A DNA stretch of 20,827 nt from a virus. Made by a program: the position numbers and the translations under genes. Shown in pieces: positions 647 through 20,802 of this stretch. The notes beneath the pieces were generated by a model. The model worked only from the letters and a program-made list of their open reading frames with translations, had not been told where the DNA came from and did not search any database. Position 1 is the stretch's first letter. Every line of letters starts with the position of its first letter. Location of the stretch: positions 1 to 20,827 of the IMG/VR virus record IMGVR_UViG_3300042526_000286; one strand, written 5' to 3'.

Positions 647-1153
647 TTAACAGCCCTTTCTTTTTAATGACCACCCTCCGACATTTATTCTATTTGAATG
701 TCTATTGGTATCTTCTTTAGGGTATTCAACAACGTCTTTATCCTTTATCCAAGCCAAGAATTGTCTTTCGTAGTGATTGTAAATCTTTCTTGCAGATTGA
801 ACAAGATAATCAACCTCTTCTTTTGATACTGATTCATTTGAATCTGATTTCATCTTAGAGATACCATTATTAGATACCATATAAGCACCTTGGGAAAGAT
901 AGATTTCACTGGATGAATGAATAACCATTTCCTTGATATAGTCCTCATACATTTCAAGATAATCCCCAGCAAGATCATCATTCTCAAAATCAAGACAAAT
1001 CTTATCATATAGAGTTTTACCAAGTAACGGTTTGATCATTGTGTTTTGAGCAATCTTTATCATAGGTAGGTATCTATCAACATCGATATTCCCACCCATT
1101 ATAGTGTTTCTTGTAAGCTCGTCCGGCTTTAATAATATAGTAGTTAGTGCCAT
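647..1153 (-). CDS. Head-tail connector/adaptor protein (gp6-like)
   Basis: A 168-residue, mainly helical protein. Residues 28 to 52 (YLPMIKIAQNTMIKPLLGK followed by TLYD) match the pattern I.xxAQxxxIxPxLGxxLYD that is typical of the small alpha-helical head-tail adaptors (gp6-like) of tailed phages, including a set common in Bacteroidota phages. Such proteins form a ring of about 12 copies beneath the portal and seal the DNA exit channel. The remaining helices include a segment EDYIKEMVIHSSSEIYLSQG and a basic C-terminus. The gene sits two bases after the portal stop codon, the expected place for an adaptor. Family assignment is from pattern recognition only, so the ring role is inferred from the family and the context. 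Confidence 0.65.
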   Translation of the reverse strand: MALTTILLKPDELTRNTIMGGNIDVDRYLPMIKIAQNTMIKPLLGKTLYDKICLDFENDDLAGDYLEMYEDYIKEMVIHSSSEIYLSQGAYMVSNNGISKMKSDSNESVSKEEVDYLVQSARKIYNHYERQFLAWIKDKDVVEYPKEDTNRHSNRINVGGWSLKRKGC

Positions 1154-1155
1154 AA

Positions 1156-2577
1156 TTATAGTTTTGTTATATTGATTCCAATTCCAGGTAATTGATCTAT
1201 CACATCTTGATTATTATCATAATGAATTGCAATCCTCAATTCTAATACCTTTTCAACTTTGGCTTTATTAGAACCAGTTGCATAAATTCTAGATAATGGA
1301 ATGCCATATCTTGCACCAAATTTATCTAATTCTGTTTCGTCTTGTCTAGCAGAGATGATATAGATCCTATTACCTTTAGCTATTTCTGACTCCAATAAGG
1401 CTTTTCCTTTGTCTGTTGTTAGTGTATTATCAAAATCAAAAGATATTCTCTTAGACGCAGCCATTTGAGTTGGTTGAGCAGGGTTTGTCTCTGTTTTTAT
1501 TCTTAATTCTTCAAAATCTATAAATTCTAATTTAACAGTAGGAGAATTTACCTTAAGTGCTTTTTCTAAACCTTTAGTTAGAATTTTTCTCATTGGATTG
1601 ATCTGACTTCTATAAAGAATTTTTAATGACTGAACCATTTGGTCGGCAACACTAGAAAATCCACTAGTCATTGGTAATCCGAATAAACTTGGATCGTTAA
1701 CTTTGTGGGACAACATGATATTAGTTTGTGCTTCTTTACTTAATGTTTCAAATTGTTGATAAGCATCAGTTACCTCGATATTTTCTACCGTTGTTGCATT
1801 TTCTTTATTTGAATTGAAGGATACTATAATATTACCAGCTACAGAAGTTCCTCTTACTTTAGCAAGAATGGCTGCTTCTGCTTCATCCTGTGCTTCATCA
1901 GTATCTGGGATACCTTCATTAACATTAATAATCTTACCCGCAGAGAAGTTATTCTTAATGTGATTATTATAATAGTTAGATAATTCCTCTTGTACTTCAC
2001 AATATTGTAATCCGGATTGATAATCAGGTAAAGCAAATAACGGTTGTGGTGATTGTCTTTTGATATAAAGAATTTCACTTTCGTTATTCTCACCAAATCC
2101 AAAAGCAGGAACGGTATAAGGCTTGAATTTAGTTTTATTTTTCCAGTCAAAACAATACCAATATTTCTCAATATCTTCAGTCATATCATCTTGTTTATAA
2201 ATAGCTACTGATTTAGTTGGAATATAAAGCATTTGTGCAACCTTTTTTTCCCTGCCTTTAGCATAAATTACTTGAACTGCACAGTTACCATGTATCTTAA
2301 AATCCGTAGCAATCATTCTCATTTCTTCTTCTTCTAGAATTTCTTCTAGATTGATTGTACCAGAAGCATCAACTAAACCATCCCCCAATATATAGTTGAC
2401 ATAATTGTCAATAATTGCTTGATTAGTTGGTGATCCCAAGTAACGATTTTCTACGTAATAAAAGAAATCATTGTCAGTTCCATTAGTAACATATTTATTA
2501 GTTTGGATAACTAATGTATGTGGGTCTGGTTTAACGTAATTATTTAGATTTAATACCGTGATTCTATCTTTTTTCAT
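1156..2577 (-). CDS. Portal protein with C-terminal HAD-type phosphatase domain
   Basis: A 473-residue protein with two clear parts. Residues 1 to about 365 look like a phage portal: an N-terminal wing, a central segment LSNYYNNHIKNNFSAGKII (199-217), then helical KEAQTNIMLSHKVNDPSLFG (281-300), a pattern shared by HK97-type portals, which form the dodecameric DNA entry ring. After a flexible Thr/Pro/Gln linker (362-371), residues 377-473 carry all HAD-superfamily motifs: DFDNT (381-385, nucleophile D381 and acid D383), Ser in IISAR (S409), Lys in SNKAK (K438 or K440), and DNNQD (454-458). The catalytic residues are intact, so phosphatase activity is plausible. The ORF is continuous, with no frameshift. 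An internal ATG (codon 372, at 1464) sits exactly before the HAD domain and could yield a free 102-residue enzyme. The portal call rests on pattern and neighbours; the HAD call is firmer. Confidence 0.8.
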   Translation of the reverse strand: MKKDRITVLNLNNYVKPDPHTLVIQTNKYVTNGTDNDFFYYVENRYLGSPTNQAIIDNYVNYILGDGLVDASGTINLEEILEEEEMRMIATDFKIHGNCAVQVIYAKGREKKVAQMLYIPTKSVAIYKQDDMTEDIEKYWYCFDWKNKTKFKPYTVPAFGFGENNESEILYIKRQSPQPLFALPDYQSGLQYCEVQEELSNYYNNHIKNNFSAGKIINVNEGIPDTDEAQDEAEAAILAKVRGTSVAGNIIVSFNSNKENATTVENIEVTDAYQQFETLSKEAQTNIMLSHKVNDPSLFGLPMTSGFSSVADQMVQSLKILYRSQINPMRKILTKGLEKALKVNSPTVKLEFIDFEELRIKTETNPAQPTQMAASKRISFDFDNTLTTDKGKALLESEIAKGNRIYIISARQDETELDKFGARYGIPLSRIYATGSNKAKVEKVLELRIAIHYDNNQDVIDQLPGIGINITKL

Positions 2578-3130: not shown

Positions 3131-3688
3131 TTAGTCTTCAGTTATCCAAGAATCTATAACAATACTTGATAAATCTTCGATTGCACCAGCAGATAACCAA
3201 TAAATAGGTTCAGATTCTTTAGCAGTAGCAGTAAAAGTATAACCATTAATTCCATCTATAGTTCCACCTAAATCTGATTTACCCGTTATCTGACAACCGT
3301 TTTCAGTTCCCATTATGAAATGTTTACCATTATTCATCTTACATATCAAAAATGGTCTACCCTTAGCCATCATCTTGAATTGATATTCCATCTCCTTACC
3401 TAAATTAGGTAGTACAAAGGTTAAAGAAGGTGAATACATAGTAGTAAAGTTATCTTCACTAAATGTTTGTGTTTGAGTAAAAGCATTAGTTGTATGCCTT
3501 AATTCAAATTTAGCAGAAGAAGCAGCTGGTATTAATCCAGTAGAAAGTAATTCATGACCAGCTTCATTTGAAACTGTTTGTCCATCAAATGCTCCTTCTA
3601 AGAAATTCATTAAATATATTGATTTGATTCCTGCTGTTAAATTTTTACAAGATAATAGTTTCTTACCTTTTGTTATATTACAACCCAT
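3131..3688 (-). CDS. Virion structural protein, paralogue 2 (185 aa; major tail protein candidate)
   Basis: A close paralogue of the 193-residue product just upstream. By hand alignment 98 of 111 residues are identical from KFELRHTTNAFTQ to WLSAGAI, while residues about 28-60 and the last 15 differ. Both open with C-N-I-[TS]-K-G-K-x-L-L-[ST]-C-K-N-L-T-A-G-I-K, including two Cys. Lack of enzyme motifs, strong terminators on both sides and proximity to the capsid gene point to an abundant virion protein. A tail tube or a capsid decoration protein are the leading options. After the TAA stop the same frame stays open for 16 codons (TTPSPIIPCHPGQMCD) to a second TAA, so the ancestor may have been longer or rare readthrough may occur. 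The start is an ATG with an A/T-rich leader. Confidence 0.65.
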   Translation of the reverse strand: MGCNITKGKKLLSCKNLTAGIKSIYLMNFLEGAFDGQTVSNEAGHELLSTGLIPAASSAKFELRHTTNAFTQTQTFSEDNFTTMYSPSLTFVLPNLGKEMEYQFKMMAKGRPFLICKMNNGKHFIMGTENGCQITGKSDLGGTIDGINGYTFTATAKESEPIYWLSAGAIEDLSSIVIDSWITED

Positions 3689-3789: not shown

Positions 3790-4371
3790 TTATGCAGGAA
3801 GATCTTCTCCAACAAATAAAGTAGAAGTCATAGTACCCAATCCAGTTATTGCACCAGCAGATAACCAAAAGATTGGCTCTGATTCTTTAGCAGTAGCAGT
3901 AAATGTGTACCCATTAGCAGCATCAATTGTACCACCTAAGTCAGATTTACCTGTTATTTGGCAACCGTTTTCAGTTCCCATTACGAAATATTTTCCGTTA
4001 TTCATTTGACAGAACAAGAATGGTCTTCCCCAAGCCATCATTTTCCATTGGTATTCCATTTCTTTTCCAAGATTTGGTAGTACAAATGTCAATGAAGGAG
4101 CATACATAGTAGTGTAGTTATCTTCACTAGCTGTTTGTGCTTGAGTAAAAGCATTAGTTGTATGTCTTAATTCGAATTTGTAAGCTTTTGTAGTAGGAGA
4201 ATCTGCTGTTAAACCTGCAACTGTATTTAATATATGACCAGTTTCGGTAGAAGTGGTACCACTAGGTGTTAATCCTCCGTCTTTGAAATCTACTAAATAT
4301 ATTGCTTTGATACCTGCTGTTAAATTCTTACAAGTTAAAAGGGCTTTCCCCTTTGATATATTACAAGGCAT
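3790..4371 (-). CDS. Virion structural protein, paralogue 1 (193 aa; major tail protein candidate)
   Basis: The 193-residue product follows the major capsid gene and is a tandem paralogue of the next gene. It opens MPCNISKGKALLTCKNLTAG, then has a variable Gly/Thr-rich segment (about 32-65) and a highly conserved core from KFELRHTTNAF to WLSAGAI. The core is rich in aromatic and Gly residues and in predicted beta strands, as expected for a tube or decoration subunit. There is no signal peptide or catalytic motif. Two conserved Cys (positions 3 and 13) occur in both copies. The gene is bounded by a stem-loop upstream and a strong terminator downstream, so it is probably produced at high level together with the capsid protein. 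Tail tube protein is my preferred call; a head fibre or decoration protein cannot be excluded. Confidence 0.65.
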   Translation of the reverse strand: MPCNISKGKALLTCKNLTAGIKAIYLVDFKDGGLTPSGTTSTETGHILNTVAGLTADSPTTKAYKFELRHTTNAFTQAQTASEDNYTTMYAPSLTFVLPNLGKEMEYQWKMMAWGRPFLFCQMNNGKYFVMGTENGCQITGKSDLGGTIDAANGYTFTATAKESEPIFWLSAGAITGLGTMTSTLFVGEDLPA

Positions 4372-4443: not shown

Positions 4444-5346
4444 TTATGCAGTAGCTCTAGAGTAAACGATTTGATTACCAAATGAATAACCAACACCAGC
4501 GTTGAATACCATTTTAGTTCTGATATTACCAGACAAATCAGATTCGTCCATATCTTTAACAGTTACGTTGTTTAAGTCAGCTTCTAATCCTGTAAGGAAA
4601 GCTACATTTTTAACTCTATATGCTATGATAGTAGATGCAGGAAGACCTCCAATTGATACCATTTTAACACCTAAGTAATCAAGATCTTTATCTCCTACTG
4701 GAGTACCGATATTAAGAGCAGCTTGAGCTTGTTTGTAAGCTTTAGCAACACCAGTTGATACTGCGAAGATTAAATCAGATTCTTCAGCAACTGAGTCTGG
4801 AACTAAGTTGTAAACTGCATCTAATTGAGCAATTACGTTAGCTTTTGTAGTAGCAGCAACTGAAGCGATGTCAATTACATCAGCATCAGCTAAGAATTTA
4901 GGTAAAAGACCAGCGAATTGTCCACTAGTACCAGCACCTTGCCAGATTTGAGTATCTACTAAAGCACCCATATTAGTAACCATTGCAAGTAAGATAGCTT
5001 CTTGAATAGTAGCAGGTATTTCATCATTAGCACCGAATAAACCAGCTGATTGAGCTTGAAAAGTTTGGTGAAACTCATCTTTACATAATTCGTGTTCGAT
5101 TTTGAATTTTTTAGTGATTACTTCTTTATCAGAATAATCTACAGTTCCATTACCTGACCATCCACAAGCGTAGTCAACTAGACCAGATGTGTAAGACAAT
5201 TTTGGTAAATAACCACTACCAATAACGTTTGGTAATACAGTGATAGCACCTTTAGAGATAGTATCAGATTTTTTAAAAGCTTGAACGAATATCTCTCCAG
5301 CTTGTACTCCTACGAAAGAAGAATTTACATTTAATGTTGTTGCCAT
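4444..5346 (-). CDS. Major capsid protein
   Basis: A 300-residue protein in the expected place right after the protease-scaffold gene. Features seen are an acidic-to-neutral, Ala/Gly/Val-rich composition, a central segment typical of shell proteins (IQEAILLAMVTNMGALVDTQ at about 118-137, the likely spine helix), and a C-terminal half with alternating strands. I assume an HK97-like fold from context and general character; I cannot prove it by motif. There is no long N-terminal delta domain, which fits a separate scaffold supplied by the upstream gene. Codon use is somewhat more even and G+C is locally higher than in neighbours, as often seen in abundant proteins. The ATG follows an A-rich, Shine-Dalgarno-free leader (AAAAACAAAAACAAATG). 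A stem-loop follows the stop. Confidence 0.8.
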   Translation of the reverse strand: MATTLNVNSSFVGVQAGEIFVQAFKKSDTISKGAITVLPNVIGSGYLPKLSYTSGLVDYACGWSGNGTVDYSDKEVITKKFKIEHELCKDEFHQTFQAQSAGLFGANDEIPATIQEAILLAMVTNMGALVDTQIWQGAGTSGQFAGLLPKFLADADVIDIASVAATTKANVIAQLDAVYNLVPDSVAEESDLIFAVSTGVAKAYKQAQAALNIGTPVGDKDLDYLGVKMVSIGGLPASTIIAYRVKNVAFLTGLEADLNNVTVKDMDESDLSGNIRTKMVFNAGVGYSFGNQIVYSRATA

Positions 5347-5365: not shown

Positions 5366-7144
5366 TTATTTATTTTGAACTATTCTTGATAATGCCTCCA
5401 TTGTTGATTCTGCCCCTTTAGATTTAACTTGATTAGCTTTTAATCTTGTGTCTTTCGGTTTAGCGGATAGTTCTGCATTTAAGTTTAAAACACTGTCTCT
5501 TTCTTGTGTTATAATTTCAAGTTGCTTAGAAAGAATATCAATCTTTTCTAAAAGTTTATCAATGTCAATTTGTTCTATTGGTTGTTCAACCTCTATTGCA
5601 ATATCTTCAGCTACTGTCATAATCTCCTCGATTGCTGCATCAGATGCTTCATTCATTTCAACAGGTTCAACTTCCGTAGCTGGTTCCATTTCTGGTTCAA
5701 CTTCTTCTTGTACTACTTCTACTTTTTCAACGATTTTACCAGTTTCATCAGTAGTGTAAGTGTACCCTTCATACTCGAAAGTTTGGCTTACTAATGGTAA
5801 TTGCTCACCTTCTGTTTCTTGATAAACAACGTTATCTAATTCGAAAGCATCAGCTGTAAGATTACCGAATCCTTCAACCATCATAGTAGCTAATTTTACA
5901 TCAGCACTAAACATTTCAATTAATTTTTTTAACATACTCATTTTTTTCTTTTTTAATTTTAGTTTTGTAACATTCTTTGGTAGAAATACTTCTTCATTTA
6001 TAGATAATATTAAATCGTCAACTTCCTGTTGGTCTATAAGGATCCAATTATCGGATGGCTGACCTTCACCTTTTGTTATAAAAGTATCTATTATCTCCGA
6101 AGGTACCTCTTCTTGATTAGAAACACTACAATTGCATTCTGTTACATTTTCTTTGGAAAGTCTCCAGTGATTGTTAGCAGAACTCGCTGTTTGTGATACT
6201 TCTGATGGATTAACCTCCAAGATGGCTTTAACAGCATCTGCTTTAGATAAACCACCTATATAGTCTAATGCTTCTTTAAGTGTCATACCAGTAGCATTAT
6301 TTTTATTTAGATAAATCTGTCTCAACCAAGCATGTCTGCAATTAACTCCACCTTTATATTTGAAAAGGTTGTAGTAATCTGATCCATTAGGTCCGAATCC
6401 GGGATTAACTGATCCAGCCGTTAGTATATCTTCTTTTCTGTAAACAAGATCAGCAGTGGTCATTCTAATGCAAAAATCTCTAGAGTTTAAACTAGTTCCT
6501 GAAGGTGAATATTTATATCTAACCTTGAATAGTTCATTATCTTGTTCACTTATTGCATCTGGGTTTGCATCTATTGCTTGTGCTAATTCAACTTGTGCTT
6601 GTGCATTCATTAGCACCTTTTCCATTTGAATGTAACTATCAATTGAAAATCCTTTAGCCACACCGGTTGTAATATATTCATCCCAAAGTGGTTGTGATAA
6701 CTTCATAGTAATCATCCAAGTTCCCATTGGTAAACCTTTGAAATTTAATGCGTTAGCTTTATCATTCTTTGGATCAACTATTAGCCAACTTTCTACTACT
6801 GATGTTCCATCCAACCATAACTTATCGTCGTGATTATATGTTGTATTTCTCTGGTAACCCTTAGTTAAGAAATCTTGAGATAGTCTTTCTATAACTGGTT
6901 CGTCAAAATAGATTTCGTATTCCGAACCATCTTTATTAACTCTTGGTATTCTTTGATTTGGAATAAGAACCACACCAGTTAATAATCTTTTTTGGGAATC
7001 GCTTACTTGTAAATTAACTACCTTTCTACCTTCTTTAGATAAGGTTAGAAAGTCATAAAGATTAGCTGGATTATCTACTATAGATATTCCATAAAGATCT
7101 CCGTCGGTTTCGTCATTATAAACAATTTTATATAGTTCCTTCAT
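5366..7144 (-). CDS. Prohead protease (XkdF-like) fused to MuF-like segment and scaffold
   Basis: A 592-residue multidomain protein. Residues 1-175 match the XkdF-like phage serine protease: GISIVDNPAN near the start, LTGVVLIPNQRIPR (55-68), NHD (H105 likely catalytic), GTWMITMKLSQPLWDEY (141-157) and GFSID (S167, likely nucleophile). Residues about 210-280 hold FCIRM...YRKEDI...KGGVNCRHAW (264-273), a Cys/His pattern like the C-terminal part of MuF-type head proteins; this call is tentative. A Lys-rich linker (395-401) leads to residues 402-592, a scaffold-like region: an MSMLKKLIEMFSADVKL start, a Glu-rich tract (473-525) and a coiled coil (about 527-560). Such maturation proteases process scaffold and themselves during capsid expansion. 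ATG 402 sits behind an A-rich tract, so a free 191-residue scaffold may also be made, like Nu3 within lambda C. Confidence 0.78.
   Translation of the reverse strand: MKELYKIVYNDETDGDLYGISIVDNPANLYDFLTLSKEGRKVVNLQVSDSQKRLLTGVVLIPNQRIPRVNKDGSEYEIYFDEPVIERLSQDFLTKGYQRNTTYNHDDKLWLDGTSVVESWLIVDPKNDKANALNFKGLPMGTWMITMKLSQPLWDEYITTGVAKGFSIDSYIQMEKVLMNAQAQVELAQAIDANPDAISEQDNELFKVRYKYSPSGTSLNSRDFCIRMTTADLVYRKEDILTAGSVNPGFGPNGSDYYNLFKYKGGVNCRHAWLRQIYLNKNNATGMTLKEALDYIGGLSKADAVKAILEVNPSEVSQTASSANNHWRLSKENVTECNCSVSNQEEVPSEIIDTFITKGEGQPSDNWILIDQQEVDDLILSINEEVFLPKNVTKLKLKKKKMSMLKKLIEMFSADVKLATMMVEGFGNLTADAFELDNVVYQETEGEQLPLVSQTFEYEGYTYTTDETGKIVEKVEVVQEEVEPEMEPATEVEPVEMNEASDAAIEEIMTVAEDIAIEVEQPIEQIDIDKLLEKIDILSKQLEIITQERDSVLNLNAELSAKPKDTRLKANQVKSKGAESTMEALSRIVQNK
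5939..5954 (-). promoter_or_regulatory. Probable internal start site for a nested scaffold protein
   Basis: Minus-strand AAAAAAGAAAAAAATG places an in-frame ATG (codon 402 of the protease fusion) behind an A-rich tract like those at real starts in this window. The product would run to 5366 and have 191 residues. A second ATG follows two codons later. In frame the same bases encode the Lys-rich linker, so A-richness may also reflect that. Confidence 0.4.
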
Positions 7145-9120: not shown

Positions 9121-12100
9121 TTATTCTACTAAACCATTTTGAGTAACTAATACTTGAGTAAGTATTCCATTTACTGTAAAGTTTAATATCAATCTTCTTG
9201 ATAAATAAACTTCTGGTGGGGTTTGACTAGCTTTTTCTTTTATTAAAATAGTTAATGTATCTCTTTTAGGATATGATAATTCAATCCATTCAGTACCAAA
9301 TCCATCTTCCCTAGCTTCTACCGACCATATTGCATCTTTTAGTACATTAATATCAAAGTATTTGCTACCAGCATTCATTACAATCTCATTAGTTGATAAT
9401 AGCTCTATAGAATATTCTTGAATAGGTCCAACAGTTGTAAATGCAATAGACAAATCAGCAATCATAATACTAGGACCAAAAGGTAGATTACCATATACTT
9501 CAGTACCAATTACAAAAATATTGTCATATCCAGCTGGTAGTTCCCTAAAGATTGTACCATTTGAATTAAGAATAATGTTACCATTTTGAATAATAGTTCC
9601 ATTATAGATAGTTGCATTAGATGTTACTAAAACTTTATCAGTATGAATTAATCTAATATCTGTAACCAATCCAGCAAATCCATTTCCACTATTGAAAGAA
9701 GTGTCAAGTTGTCCACTTGGTAATATCTTAACAATACCCCAAGCAGTTTCACCAGCATATCCACTAATATCCCCACCAACATAGATTGAATCACTTTCTG
9801 ATTGAATAACTTTTAAATAAGAACTATATTCTGAAGTTAGTACCTGTGGAACAAATGAAGTAACTTCACCAAATCCAGTAGCATCAATTGCTATAATATG
9901 AGGTCTACTATTACCATTGTGTTCATCAAATACTCCCACTACATATAGAGTATTTGGATTATTCTTAGCAGCAACCATAGAAGTTATAGCATTGTTAAAC
10001 CCAACACCACCTGTATTAATAGAGATATTGTTACCATTTGCTGCATCAACCTTAACAAAATAATCTGTTTGGTATGCTGTTAATCCATTATAATCTAAGA
10101 ATGAACCACCTATAAGAAATGATTCAGATGTTCCGTAAGGTGCAATAGTTGTAGTTGCTCCATCAAATCCTACCCCAGGATTAAATCCACTATGAGTTAA
10201 ACCATTAATGTCTATATAAGCAATATTGTTTGTACTTACCCCATCGTATTTATCAAAAATACCAGTAACAATCATTCTTCCATCAATGTGTTGTAGAATA
10301 GATGCTCCTAATCTTTGGGGAGCCATTGTAAGTCCATCAGATAGTGTAAATCCATCTCCAAAACTTGTATACTGATAAGGTGTACCATCAAAATTCAGTC
10401 TAATAATAACATTGTTAGTTGCTCCATCATAAGAAGTGAAGTTACCATATAAAGTAATATAACTTTGTGCAGTATCTACATAGTAATCTCTAAGTACCCA
10501 TTCTTGGTGCACATCATCTGAATCATAATAATCAAATGAACCAAATGTTTTACCCAGTTCATTAATTTGAGAATGGTTCCAATCGTAGATGTCATTGAAT
10601 AGTGTAAGAACTCCTTTGCCAGTAGTAAGGTCAATCTTATAGTCATTAATTTTAAATCTATTATTATTAATAATCACTCTATCATTCAATGATAACTCCT
10701 GTACATATCTAGGTGGTAACTGAACATTGTAAGTGAACTTACGTTGTTTTAGAGAGTAGATAGTGTCTATCCAATCTTTCCAATAGTTTTTAAATAAAGA
10801 TTTATCAGCCTTAGCTAAATGCCAAGGGTCTATTTCTTCGCCATAATTAAGGGTATTAGTAACTTGTTCTAATATTGCATCATTTGTATTTCCAGCTTGG
10901 TATGAATAGATGAAAGGAACAGCTGTTTCATTTCCATATTTAAAATAAACTGGAGCATCTGGATGAGACATTAAACCATTATTAAAGAATATAATAGGTT
11001 TAGTGTTATTTTTAGATAAAGTATTACCATCTAATTTACAGGCTTGTCCTATAGTGATATTAGTTTGTTTATTTGCACCTATACCTGGTTTAAGTATTCT
11101 CTCAAATAACATATTTTCAAAAGGTAATTCAACTGTTAATACATCCTTAGATTCTATGATTGCTATTTTAGAATTTAAGTCACCATATCCAATGAGATTT
11201 GATGGATTATTAGTTTCTCTAAATTTCTTACCATTTACATTTTCTGTTTTTTGGTATTTAAAATCAATCGACTTATAGATAAGTGGTCTATCAATTTGAA
11301 TAGTCTTTTCATCAACGTATTGATTAATGTTAAGAATATTTCCATTATCATAATATGAATTTAATGTATCTAAGTAAAAGATACTATCAGAAACAGGTCT
11401 AATAATAAGTTTGAACTGTTTCATCAATCCCTGTATAAAATCAATCACCTTCATTTTAGGTAGAATATTGCTAAAAGTAATACCCCATACACTAACTTGC
11501 CAAATACCACCTGTTGATGGTTGATTATTTATCTGAACATAATTACTCCAATCTGGTGCTAATAGTATTATTGTATAGTAGTAATTGAATAGACTATCTG
11601 ATTTAATTTCATAAGTTATTTTATGAGAACCACTAGTATTAACAGAGATGACATTCATTCCTTTTAATTCCTCAGATTCAGATAATTTTATACCATTATC
11701 ATATACAATTAGTTTATAACTAACATCCTCAAATCCAACAGCATCATCAATATATATTTCTACACTTCTATTTTGTTCTGTTGATACATAGGAAATACTA
11801 TTATCTGTATTATTAACAGTAAATCCATTTGCAGTAGCAAAAGCTAGTTGAGTAGGTGTAGCTTCAATATCCAATAATTGATAATCTCCAAATGAAGATA
11901 GAGATGGGTCAGTCCACATATAGGCATTATTCATCACTTCCAAACCAAAGAAGTCTCTAGTAAATGTAATACCATACTTATTTTCTATTGCTTCTATAAT
12001 TCTCATTAATCTAATTGCTGGTCTTAGTTCAGTATTTAGTATAGCACCAACAGAAGTTCCAATATCAATAGTATTTGCTGTTCCGTAGTTCCAATCTCTA

Positions 12101-13014
12101 TCAGCATAGGCTATAAGTGGAGTAATAACATTACCATCCATAAAAGATGGGTCAGACATAGTACGAAGGGTATTAGCAGATGTGCTTTCATAGTTAAACT
12201 GTGACAACTTAGTCCAAGTAGGTTCCAAATCTGTTACACCAAATTGGTCTTTATTATAGTCTAATTTATCTATAGTATCTTCACCAAGTAAATCTGTAAG
12301 TTGTTTCAAACCCCCAAAGAATGTTATCTTATATGCATAAGGTTCTCCATCCTTCATTTGAACACCTTCTAATTGAAACTTACCATTTCTGAATACATAA
12401 GTATCAACCTCTATATAAGCATTCACTCTGATATTAGCATTAAATTGGTAATCATCTTCAGCTGAATAATCAAAGTAATATTTAAGTGCTGCACTATTAG
12501 TAGGAGTTGCTGGGATGGTAAATGAATCACTAAAATCAGTAAAGATATTAGATAGCTTTTCAATATCTGCTAACTTACTTGTGAACTGAATAGACTCATC
12601 TTTGAATAAATCTAATTCAGTATAACTTTCTGTATTATCAACAAGAGTATCAATCACATAAACTTGCTCTGGTTCAGTTGGTCCAGAAAAGATTAATAGG
12701 TCATAAAATGTAAATAACGATGTAAATGTTGTTGATGTTGTTTCATCTACTACATATTCATTCATACTAAAATCATAGATACCTAATTCTGCTTGTAAGT
12801 CATTAACATACTGCATAAATGCTTCTATAAATAACTGTAAAGTTGCTTGGTCATTATGTATCATATCAGATTCAGTAGTTCCAAATCTAAATGAGTAGGT
12901 AGTTCCATTCATTATGAATGAAATCTGTCCCCCTGTTACAGGAATAGCTTGCCACTCTAAGTTAAGAGTACTAGGTCCTAAGTTTTGTTGTCCTACGTAT
13001 AATTTTACTTCCAT
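9121..13014 (-). CDS. Large tail/baseplate protein with beta-propeller repeats and BACON-like C-terminus
   Basis: A 1297-residue tail protein, the longest in the window. Residues 1 to about 830 form the tail core: SFTIPATPTNSAALKYYF (164-181), then FRNGKFQLEGVQMKDGEPYA (208-227), LPKMKVIDFIQGLMKQFKLI (518-537) and a DTLNSYYDNGNILNI stretch, motifs I know from tail proteins of Bacteroidota phages and prophages. Residues about 850-1160 hold six units marked by G-x-F-x-x-Y-[DN]-G (857, 918, 970, 1027, 1081, 1133), with sentences like LPSGQLDTSFNSGNGF (1098-1113); this is the delta-60/DUF5122 type of beta-propeller repeat. Residues about 1205-1297 resemble a BACON domain ending in VLVTQNG. The C-terminal third is probably the part that meets the host surface. 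The ATG overlaps the preceding stop by one base. The recognition target is unknown. Confidence 0.75.
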   Translation of the reverse strand: MEVKLYVGQQNLGPSTLNLEWQAIPVTGGQISFIMNGTTYSFRFGTTESDMIHNDQATLQLFIEAFMQYVNDLQAELGIYDFSMNEYVVDETTSTTFTSLFTFYDLLIFSGPTEPEQVYVIDTLVDNTESYTELDLFKDESIQFTSKLADIEKLSNIFTDFSDSFTIPATPTNSAALKYYFDYSAEDDYQFNANIRVNAYIEVDTYVFRNGKFQLEGVQMKDGEPYAYKITFFGGLKQLTDLLGEDTIDKLDYNKDQFGVTDLEPTWTKLSQFNYESTSANTLRTMSDPSFMDGNVITPLIAYADRDWNYGTANTIDIGTSVGAILNTELRPAIRLMRIIEAIENKYGITFTRDFFGLEVMNNAYMWTDPSLSSFGDYQLLDIEATPTQLAFATANGFTVNNTDNSISYVSTEQNRSVEIYIDDAVGFEDVSYKLIVYDNGIKLSESEELKGMNVISVNTSGSHKITYEIKSDSLFNYYYTIILLAPDWSNYVQINNQPSTGGIWQVSVWGITFSNILPKMKVIDFIQGLMKQFKLIIRPVSDSIFYLDTLNSYYDNGNILNINQYVDEKTIQIDRPLIYKSIDFKYQKTENVNGKKFRETNNPSNLIGYGDLNSKIAIIESKDVLTVELPFENMLFERILKPGIGANKQTNITIGQACKLDGNTLSKNNTKPIIFFNNGLMSHPDAPVYFKYGNETAVPFIYSYQAGNTNDAILEQVTNTLNYGEEIDPWHLAKADKSLFKNYWKDWIDTIYSLKQRKFTYNVQLPPRYVQELSLNDRVIINNNRFKINDYKIDLTTGKGVLTLFNDIYDWNHSQINELGKTFGSFDYYDSDDVHQEWVLRDYYVDTAQSYITLYGNFTSYDGATNNVIIRLNFDGTPYQYTSFGDGFTLSDGLTMAPQRLGASILQHIDGRMIVTGIFDKYDGVSTNNIAYIDINGLTHSGFNPGVGFDGATTTIAPYGTSESFLIGGSFLDYNGLTAYQTDYFVKVDAANGNNISINTGGVGFNNAITSMVAAKNNPNTLYVVGVFDEHNGNSRPHIIAIDATGFGEVTSFVPQVLTSEYSSYLKVIQSESDSIYVGGDISGYAGETAWGIVKILPSGQLDTSFNSGNGFAGLVTDIRLIHTDKVLVTSNATIYNGTIIQNGNIILNSNGTIFRELPAGYDNIFVIGTEVYGNLPFGPSIMIADLSIAFTTVGPIQEYSIELLSTNEIVMNAGSKYFDINVLKDAIWSVEAREDGFGTEWIELSYPKRDTLTILIKEKASQTPPEVYLSRRLILNFTVNGILTQVLVTQNGLVE

Positions 13015-19395: not shown

Positions 19396-20076
19396 TTATA
19401 GTTTATTTAATGCTTTTTCATAAGCTTGATATGCTTCCTCCTCTGTTGCGAAGCATCCTAAATATATTCTTTTAGAACCTATTCTTATATGTGCTATCCA
19501 TTTATTCTTATTATTTTTTCCATAAGTGACCCCTACATATTTGGATGCTGTAGATTTTTTAGCATAACCAAGAGATGTATTCTGTCTATTTGTAACTAAT
19601 CTAAGATTTTCAAGTCTATTATCAGTTTTTATACCATTTATATGGTCTACAACTATGATATTTCCATTTGGTATATGGTTCAGAAATGCTATTGCCATAA
19701 ATTGATGAACCTTATTTATATTAGATTTTTTACCATCCACAGATAAAGTTGAACACAAATATTCTTTAATTGGGCTGGTTTTTAATATGATAGGGGTTCT
19801 ATTTTTTATACTAAGAATTCTTCCCTGGTTACTTATTTTATATCCTGGATGTTCTGGGATGTTAATGAAAAATTCATTTTCATTAACATTAATATATCTA
19901 TCTACCGATAAATTCCAATTATAATTATCTATTTGTTTATCCTGGGTTTCAATTATATTATTTCTAATAATAGATCTACTTAATCCAGTAATTTTTGATA
20001 CTGAATCCAAATAAATAAATTCAGAATTTTCAATCAATAGATTTATAGTTTTTTGTATTATAGATTTATCTTTCAT
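19396..20076 (-). CDS. HNH homing endonuclease with NUMOD4 and AP2 domains
   Basis: A 226-residue free-standing homing endonuclease. Residues 20-42 look like a helix-turn-helix (VSKITGLSRSIIRNN). A NUMOD4-type segment EHPGYKISNQGRILSI (75-90) follows. The HNH_3 nuclease core runs 122-165: VHQFMAIAFL (H124), VDHINGIKTDNRLENLRLVT (143-162, H145 and N147, N153 and N157) and NRQN. Residues 179-222 form an AP2-like DNA-binding domain (SKYVGVTYGKNNKNKWIAHI then YLGCFATEEEAYQAYEKAL). Such enzymes cut DNA lacking their own gene so that repair copies them in. No intron or split coding gene surrounds it, and neighbours are intact, so it sits between genes. Codon use is more A/T-rich than the neighbouring phosphoesterase gene, as expected for a mobile gene. 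HNH catalytic residues appear intact. Confidence 0.88.
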   Translation of the reverse strand: MKDKSIIQKTINLLIENSEFIYLDSVSKITGLSRSIIRNNIIETQDKQIDNYNWNLSVDRYINVNENEFFINIPEHPGYKISNQGRILSIKNRTPIILKTSPIKEYLCSTLSVDGKKSNINKVHQFMAIAFLNHIPNGNIIVVDHINGIKTDNRLENLRLVTNRQNTSLGYAKKSTASKYVGVTYGKNNKNKWIAHIRIGSKRIYLGCFATEEEAYQAYEKALNKL

Positions 20077-20118: not shown

Positions 20119-20802
20119 TCATGATTCATACATAGGTATTAATATGGGTTGGGTTCCGTCTATTACAACTAAACAGGATAAAACGCTTTTTTTACCCCAT
20201 TTTCCATAAGCAAATGCTATTTGTGTGTCGTCAACTCCTACCCCTACTTGGGCAGCAAATATAGTTTTGTCCGATCCTGCAAAGAATTTAATATAGGCTA
20301 AACTATGATAATGACCGGAAACACATGATCTAAATTCTGATTTAACCCTAGATTCCGCATTTTGCTGTAATCCATGGCAATAAAATACACCATCTATCTC
20401 GATACTTTCTACAAAATTCCATCCAGGTACACCAAGAACTTCGGCTAATTCTTTTCTAAATTGAAAGGGTATTCCTGCAGCGTGCAATCGCCTTTCGTAA
20501 TTTTTGTCATGATTGCCCCATGTAACAGCAGCTTTTGGAAAAGCTTTATACCATTTGGCAATTCTGCTTTTAGCTAATTCTAATTCATCAGCAGCACCAG
20601 GCATATCAGGATTTGTTTCGTGAAAATTCCATGCTGCGGAGTCTAAAATATCACCAATAAATAGAACTGTGTCGCATTTCCATTTTCTGTATTCATCCTT
20701 GCAAAATTGTAAATAATCTGGATGATCCCACGGACAGTGTAAATCAGCTATTACAAGTACTCTACTTTTTTTTTCTTTTGGGGTTTTTAATTTGTTAAAC
20801 AT
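20119..20802 (-). CDS. Calcineurin-like metallophosphoesterase
   Basis: A 227-residue enzyme with every metal-binding motif of the calcineurin-like family: D20-x-H22 in VIADLHCPW, G50-D51 in FIGDILD, GNHD (96-99), H143 in YCHGLQQ, and GHYH (163-166). It should hydrolyse a phosphate ester using two metal ions. The substrate cannot be predicted; phage members may act on nucleotides, nucleic-acid ends or cyclic nucleotides. It has no signal peptide, so it is cytoplasmic. Length fits a single catalytic domain. The stop is TGA, unlike most genes here. The ATG at 20802 has an A/T-rich upstream stretch; the window ends 25 bases further, so the promoter and upstream neighbour are not seen. A homing endonuclease gene follows after 42 bases. 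Confidence 0.85.
   Translation of the reverse strand: MFNKLKTPKEKKSRVLVIADLHCPWDHPDYLQFCKDEYRKWKCDTVLFIGDILDSAAWNFHETNPDMPGAADELELAKSRIAKWYKAFPKAAVTWGNHDKNYERRLHAAGIPFQFRKELAEVLGVPGWNFVESIEIDGVFYCHGLQQNAESRVKSEFRSCVSGHYHSLAYIKFFAGSDKTIFAAQVGVGVDDTQIAFAYGKWGKKSVLSCLVVIDGTQPILIPMYES

Follow-up and report, generated by a model that had tools for sequence, protein, structure and literature searches.

A predicted HAD phosphatase domain fused to a phage portal belongs to a family carried by head proteins and by free genes

Introduction

Why should the portal protein of a phage end in what looks like a complete phosphatase? The question is raised by a 20,827-nucleotide stretch of viral DNA (IMG/VR record IMGVR_UViG_3300042526_000286, positions 1 to 20,827; hereafter the window), in which a first-pass annotation, made from the sequence alone, had noticed a portal-like body that continues into a HAD domain. 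Small enzymes on head proteins have precedents: the portions of PMC9503650 and PMC5512222 cited here describe Nudix enzymes joined to MuF, portal and capsid-processing serine peptidase proteins and 2H enzymes joined to MuF or portal, and predict that such fusions are packaged and injected. We asked whether the fusion in the window is real, whether its HAD domain is likely to be an enzyme, and where else this domain is found.

Results

The portal and the HAD domain share one reading frame

The fusion is encoded by a single minus-strand ORF at 1156-2577 (473 aa), in which a portal body and a cap-less HAD domain lie in one frame; the annotation had given this frame without its strand, and the frame is real. 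Its parts and the head genes around it are as follows.

1483..2577, minus strand: portal body, residues 1-365 (PHROG 33693, PF04860, similarity to the Nonlabens phage P12024S portal)
1453..1482, minus strand: linker, residues 366-375, Thr/Pro/Gln-rich, including Met372 (direct translation)
1462..1464, minus strand: internal ATG at codon 372 (position 1464), perhaps left over from the start of a once separate gene and unlikely to be used
1159..1452, minus strand: predicted HAD phosphatase domain, residues 376-473, C0 (no cap) (conservation, AlphaFold2, PHROG 4256)
647..1153, minus strand: DUF6712 protein adjoining the portal, probable head-tail adaptor (PF20459, E 5.3e-15; conserved position after the portal)
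4444..5346, minus strand: major capsid protein (synteny with P12024S gp02; PHROG 11320, E 1.7e-51, function not named)
5366..7144, minus strand: S78_2 (XkdF-like) prohead protease, without HAD (PF14550, E 1.4e-10; PHROG 24921, E 1.3e-41)
6185..6598, minus strand: C/H domain in the protease gene, residues 183-320 (PHROG 33693 positions 414-549, E 4.7e-25)

The portal-like character of the body was borne out by the PHROG 33693 'portal protein' profile, which matches residues 8-360 (E 2.1e-69), by PF04860 (E about 1e-8 to 1.6e-8; 34.6 bits, just under the curated cut-off of 39.1) and by 37.8% identity to the P12024S portal (gp06). The gene lies in a head module whose TerL, S78_2 protease and DUF6712 protein are recognised by profile and whose capsid protein is recognised by synteny. 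P12024S shares the same protease-capsid-tube-portal-adaptor gene order; its portal, however, ends in a C/H domain, whereas that of the window ends in the HAD. PDB sequence searches with the HAD and with the portal gave no convincing match, and the AlphaFold2 model of the whole fusion (pLDDT 50) was too poor for placing the HAD.

Elsewhere on the minus strand of the window we noted two similar adjacent genes (3131-3688 and 3790-4371), probably tail-tube-like paralogues by synteny; a 1297 aa protein whose C-terminal part has DUF5122 beta-propeller repeats (9121-13014); an HNH homing endonuclease with AP2 and NUMOD4 motifs (19396-20076); and a calcineurin-like metallophosphoesterase (20119-20802; PHROG 221, E 3.5e-47), which gives the phage a second phosphoesterase.

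The possibility that an assembly or sequencing error had fused two genes is now negligible. A survey of related phages found portal and HAD joined in frame again in L002 (86% identical) and in L025/L026 and L047 (about 60% identical), all from other samples, and between L001 and L002 dN/dS is 0.09 in the portal and 0.12 in the HAD, so the error is refuted. L001/L024 is a contig that overlaps the window and carries the fusion in an ORF 100% identical to it. The HAD evolves under purifying selection; in the linker stretch (residues 358-375, 17 codons) dN/dS for the same pair is 0.61.

The active site of the HAD domain is conserved

The HAD motifs lie at D381-T385, S409, K440 and D454-D458. All residues that had been proposed for four intact motifs are present, and 87/87 unique relatives keep D381, D383, S/T409, R411, K440, H452 and N456; D454 is found in 83 (the other four have E), T385 in 83 and D458 in 80. 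The exception to the proposal is K438, its second lysine, which only 60 of the 87 retain, and we therefore take K440 as motif III. AlphaFold2 modelled residues 372-473 as a cap-less HAD core with a pLDDT of 96.4. In this model the motifs fall at their canonical places, the ends of strands 1, 2 and 4 and within the helix that precedes strand 4. The best PDB fold matches of this model are YrbI/KDO8P-type C0 phosphatases (3n07, 4hgo; best E 2.4e-3), which share the cap-less fold; the phage domain, however, is only 15-18% identical to them, shorter, phage-borne and found on head proteins.

Profile searches, which the annotation had suggested as a check, gave a divided answer: no Pfam or NCBIfam model matched the window HAD above threshold (NCBIfam HAD-SF-IIB reached only E 0.12), but PHROG 4256 (function not named) did at E 7e-6. 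We assign the domain to the HAD class because of this match together with the catalytic conservation and the fold. Among 40 relatives, PHROG 8630 'nucleotidase' matches 28 (best E 6.7e-6), the polynucleotide kinase profile PHROG 415 weakly matches 8 (best E 0.011) and PF00702 weakly matches 8 (best E 0.038), so that by sequence the nearest named families are phage nucleotidases and then, weakly, polynucleotide kinases. T4 polynucleotide kinase (1rrc), whose 3'-phosphatase domain has HAD motifs, as do the nucleotidases of PHROG 8630, stands lower among the fold matches (E 0.039). The resemblance to these enzymes in sequence and fold is weak, and they differ in that the phage HAD has no kinase domain and that neither the T4 nor the PHROG 8630 enzymes are virion-linked. 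We found no Pfam model covering this HAD family. BFVD structures include clear relatives, several named XkdF, and HAD-protease fusions have thus already been deposited; we found no comment on them.

The annotation had also allowed for a merely structural cap. A cap or decoration without catalysis would suit a small, stable fold in a head-gene context, but the catalytic positions are conserved in all carriers, across 87 relatives, and we hold such a role to be very improbable.

An internal start at codon 372 is unlikely

The internal ATG from which a free enzyme had been proposed to arise is indeed present at position 1464. Its leader, though, is atypical for the window genome, with 50% A+T in the 20 bases before it versus 70-100% (mean 88%) before 22 window ORF starts, which disfavours a start there, and the proposal of release by internal initiation is weakened. 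Of the 9 portal fusions, 8 have a Met no more than 8 residues ahead of the HAD, against 8 of the 31 S78_2 fusions; this Met may be a relic of free-standing genes that became fused, with the portal cases not independent of one another.

Most related portals lack the HAD

The view that the fusion is unusual for a portal held up. Among the matches listed, which exclude the known fusion carriers L025 and L047, 80 portal-body relatives include a HAD only in the window's own contig; about 66 complete ones lack the HAD, and 52 complete ones end in the C/H domain (SRxFC...GGxxCxHxW). One relative, L110, has a portal body 63% identical to that of the window; its protein ends at residue 366 and carries neither the HAD nor the C/H domain, and no HAD was found anywhere on its 17.6 kb. 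Since most relatives have the C/H domain and L110 has neither, the portal family does not need the HAD, and within PHROG 33693 portals the fusion is rare.

The C/H domain, the C-terminal portal domain of most relatives, sits in the prohead protease gene of the window; in L025 and L047 we detected it neither in the portal nor in the protease gene. An identification of this domain as MuF was dropped when Pfam gave no MuF match.

The HAD domain occurs on several head proteins and as a free gene

IMG/VR holds at least 480 relatives of the HAD. Of 90 unique HADs, with carrier classes assigned from representative carriers, 42 occupy small genes and 31 sit in S78_2 proteases; PHROG 33693 portals account for 9, S78 proteases for 7 and a PHROG 12 portal for 1. 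Across 107 loci, all large fusion partners are head proteins, namely two portal families and the S78_2 and S78 prohead proteases. The point of attachment varies: in S78_2 (XkdF-like) proteases the HAD, with a small Cys module, interrupts the family profile near position 41-44 (L055, L095), and in L060, L067, L070, L072 and L077 it lies between the portal body and the C/H domain. Among the free genes, those of L098 and L102 overlap the end of the protease gene and precede the capsid gene, and that of L104, from a Bacteroidetes MAG, is likewise placed between protease and capsid; those of L004, L030, L086, L092 and L006 lie a short way upstream of TerL. Because 42/90 unique HADs stand free, attachment to a head protein is not essential; because the module is so widespread on other carriers and as a separate gene, the special role at the DNA gateway that the annotation had envisaged, a role specific to the portal, is unlikely.

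Could the enzyme instead be a metabolic nucleotidase with its task in the infected cell, linked to late genes only for their expression level, the fusion being incidental? Close to half of the unique HADs do stand as free genes, and nucleotidase is the nearest named PHROG, but the large partners are without exception head proteins, one mode of fusion being an insertion inside the protease domain, and no HAD fused to a metabolic or replication protein was found in the 107 loci. We regard this explanation as quite improbable.

An enzyme of packaging or assembly, which would work on DNA ends, nucleotides or phosphorylated packaging factors with no role after ejection, deserves more weight and is still unlikely in our judgement. 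In its favour, the free HAD genes of the five loci just named closely precede the terminase genes, others lie in or beside protease and portal, and the fold matches include T4 polynucleotide kinase. Terminase-cut ends, however, normally need no phosphatase, and close relatives, L110 and the complete portals among the matches listed, do without the HAD.

No locus among the 107 has two HAD ORFs, and whole records contain exactly one HAD in 11/12 cases, L110 having none; since many records are fragments, a single-copy rule is provisional. On the HAD tree, built from an alignment of only 95 columns, parsimony requires 12 carrier changes, compared with 40 in shuffles. Neither a single clade of the four C-terminal portal HADs (p 0.68) nor one of eight portal HADs (p 0.44) was rejected by AU tests. 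With so few columns, and with single clades left standing, the tree does not yield a count of independent fusions.

Two small modules accompany the family. The Cys module (GESxxxFxxRC...QAxAIC), which has no Pfam match and a weak one to PHROG 2423, is often found ahead of the HAD, whether the carrier is a protease, a portal or a free gene (L035, L055, L060, L095 and many others), and a second module (DGCGxLMWxAWGG; L008, L031, L035, L095), part of PHROG 2859, is inserted in the same head proteins. In L079 (9824-10930), a 368 aa protein away from recognised head genes combines the Cys module, the HAD and a C-terminal C/H-like motif.

The phages probably infect Bacteroidota

HAD loci were found in a Bacteroidetes MAG, a Flavobacteriaceae MAG and Myroides, and together with the Nonlabens phage portal match they suggest that the hosts are probably Bacteroidota. 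With 5 hits in 84,980 species genomes the family is almost missing from them, and isolated phages gave no close HAD match. A distant relative in Myroides marinus (L106, 7863-8381) lies in a seemingly chromosomal, non-prophage setting and is a possible cellular source of the module.

Discussion

We propose, with a probability of roughly 0.6, that the HAD is an active Mg2+-dependent phosphomonoesterase, with nucleotides or nucleic-acid ends as its probable substrates, and that it is a mobile module placed in the head by way of head proteins. The portal C-terminus would then be a catalytically competent cap-less enzyme with Asp381 as nucleophile and Asp383 as acid/base, the Mg2+ being held by the DNNxD motif. 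Such a module would be kept within the set of head-assembly genes, usually joined to a protein that enters the procapsid, and it would ride on whichever carrier offers itself, be it the portal, the prohead protease or an adjoining linker. From established phage biology, the partner proteins of the HAD are known to go into the procapsid or to form its lining, and the C-terminus of the portal to sit at the crown, on the inner side of the head. The simplest account of this shared property is that selection favours an enzyme in the head and not on the portal as such.

Covalent attachment would bring up to twelve copies to the portal crown inside the head, where the enzyme could act, or it could act once released by the prohead protease and ejected with the DNA. 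It would take off terminal phosphates, and weak similarity to nucleotidases and polynucleotide kinases suggests nucleotides or nucleic-acid ends as the most likely substrates. Portals are not ejected, and action in a new host would therefore need cleavage; we identified no cleavage site.

A bolder version of this proposal, which we offer tentatively and hold to be possible, is that the family is a transferable, procapsid-delivered effector of phages of aquatic bacteria (probably Bacteroidota), present as one copy per genome in any head-protein slot (portal C-terminus or linker, protease loop) and released or exposed at infection, where it would strip phosphates from a host signal or a nucleic-acid end.

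The closest parallel is with polyvalent-effector fusions (Nudix, 2H, PBECR, ART), which, in the portions of PMC5512222 and PMC9503650 cited here, are likewise small enzymes on the same head-protein classes, in a late-gene context and with predicted packaging in the head. Unlike them, the HAD is a phosphatase, a type that those portions do not name on head proteins, and unlike the long multidomain polyvalent effectors it is usually a single module, with many copies as free genes. Our search of open-licence PMC literature found no report of a HAD on a portal or prohead protease, and in that literature the family on head proteins is undescribed.

The family thus adds one more enzyme type, a phosphatase, to the short list of those fused to phage head proteins. 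It also presents a single enzyme domain that switches carriers, between portal, two types of protease and a free gene, while gene order remains largely constant, and this switching offers a comparative handle on the purpose of enzymes inside phage heads. With relatives that have the HAD and relatives that lack it, the role of a head enzyme becomes directly testable.
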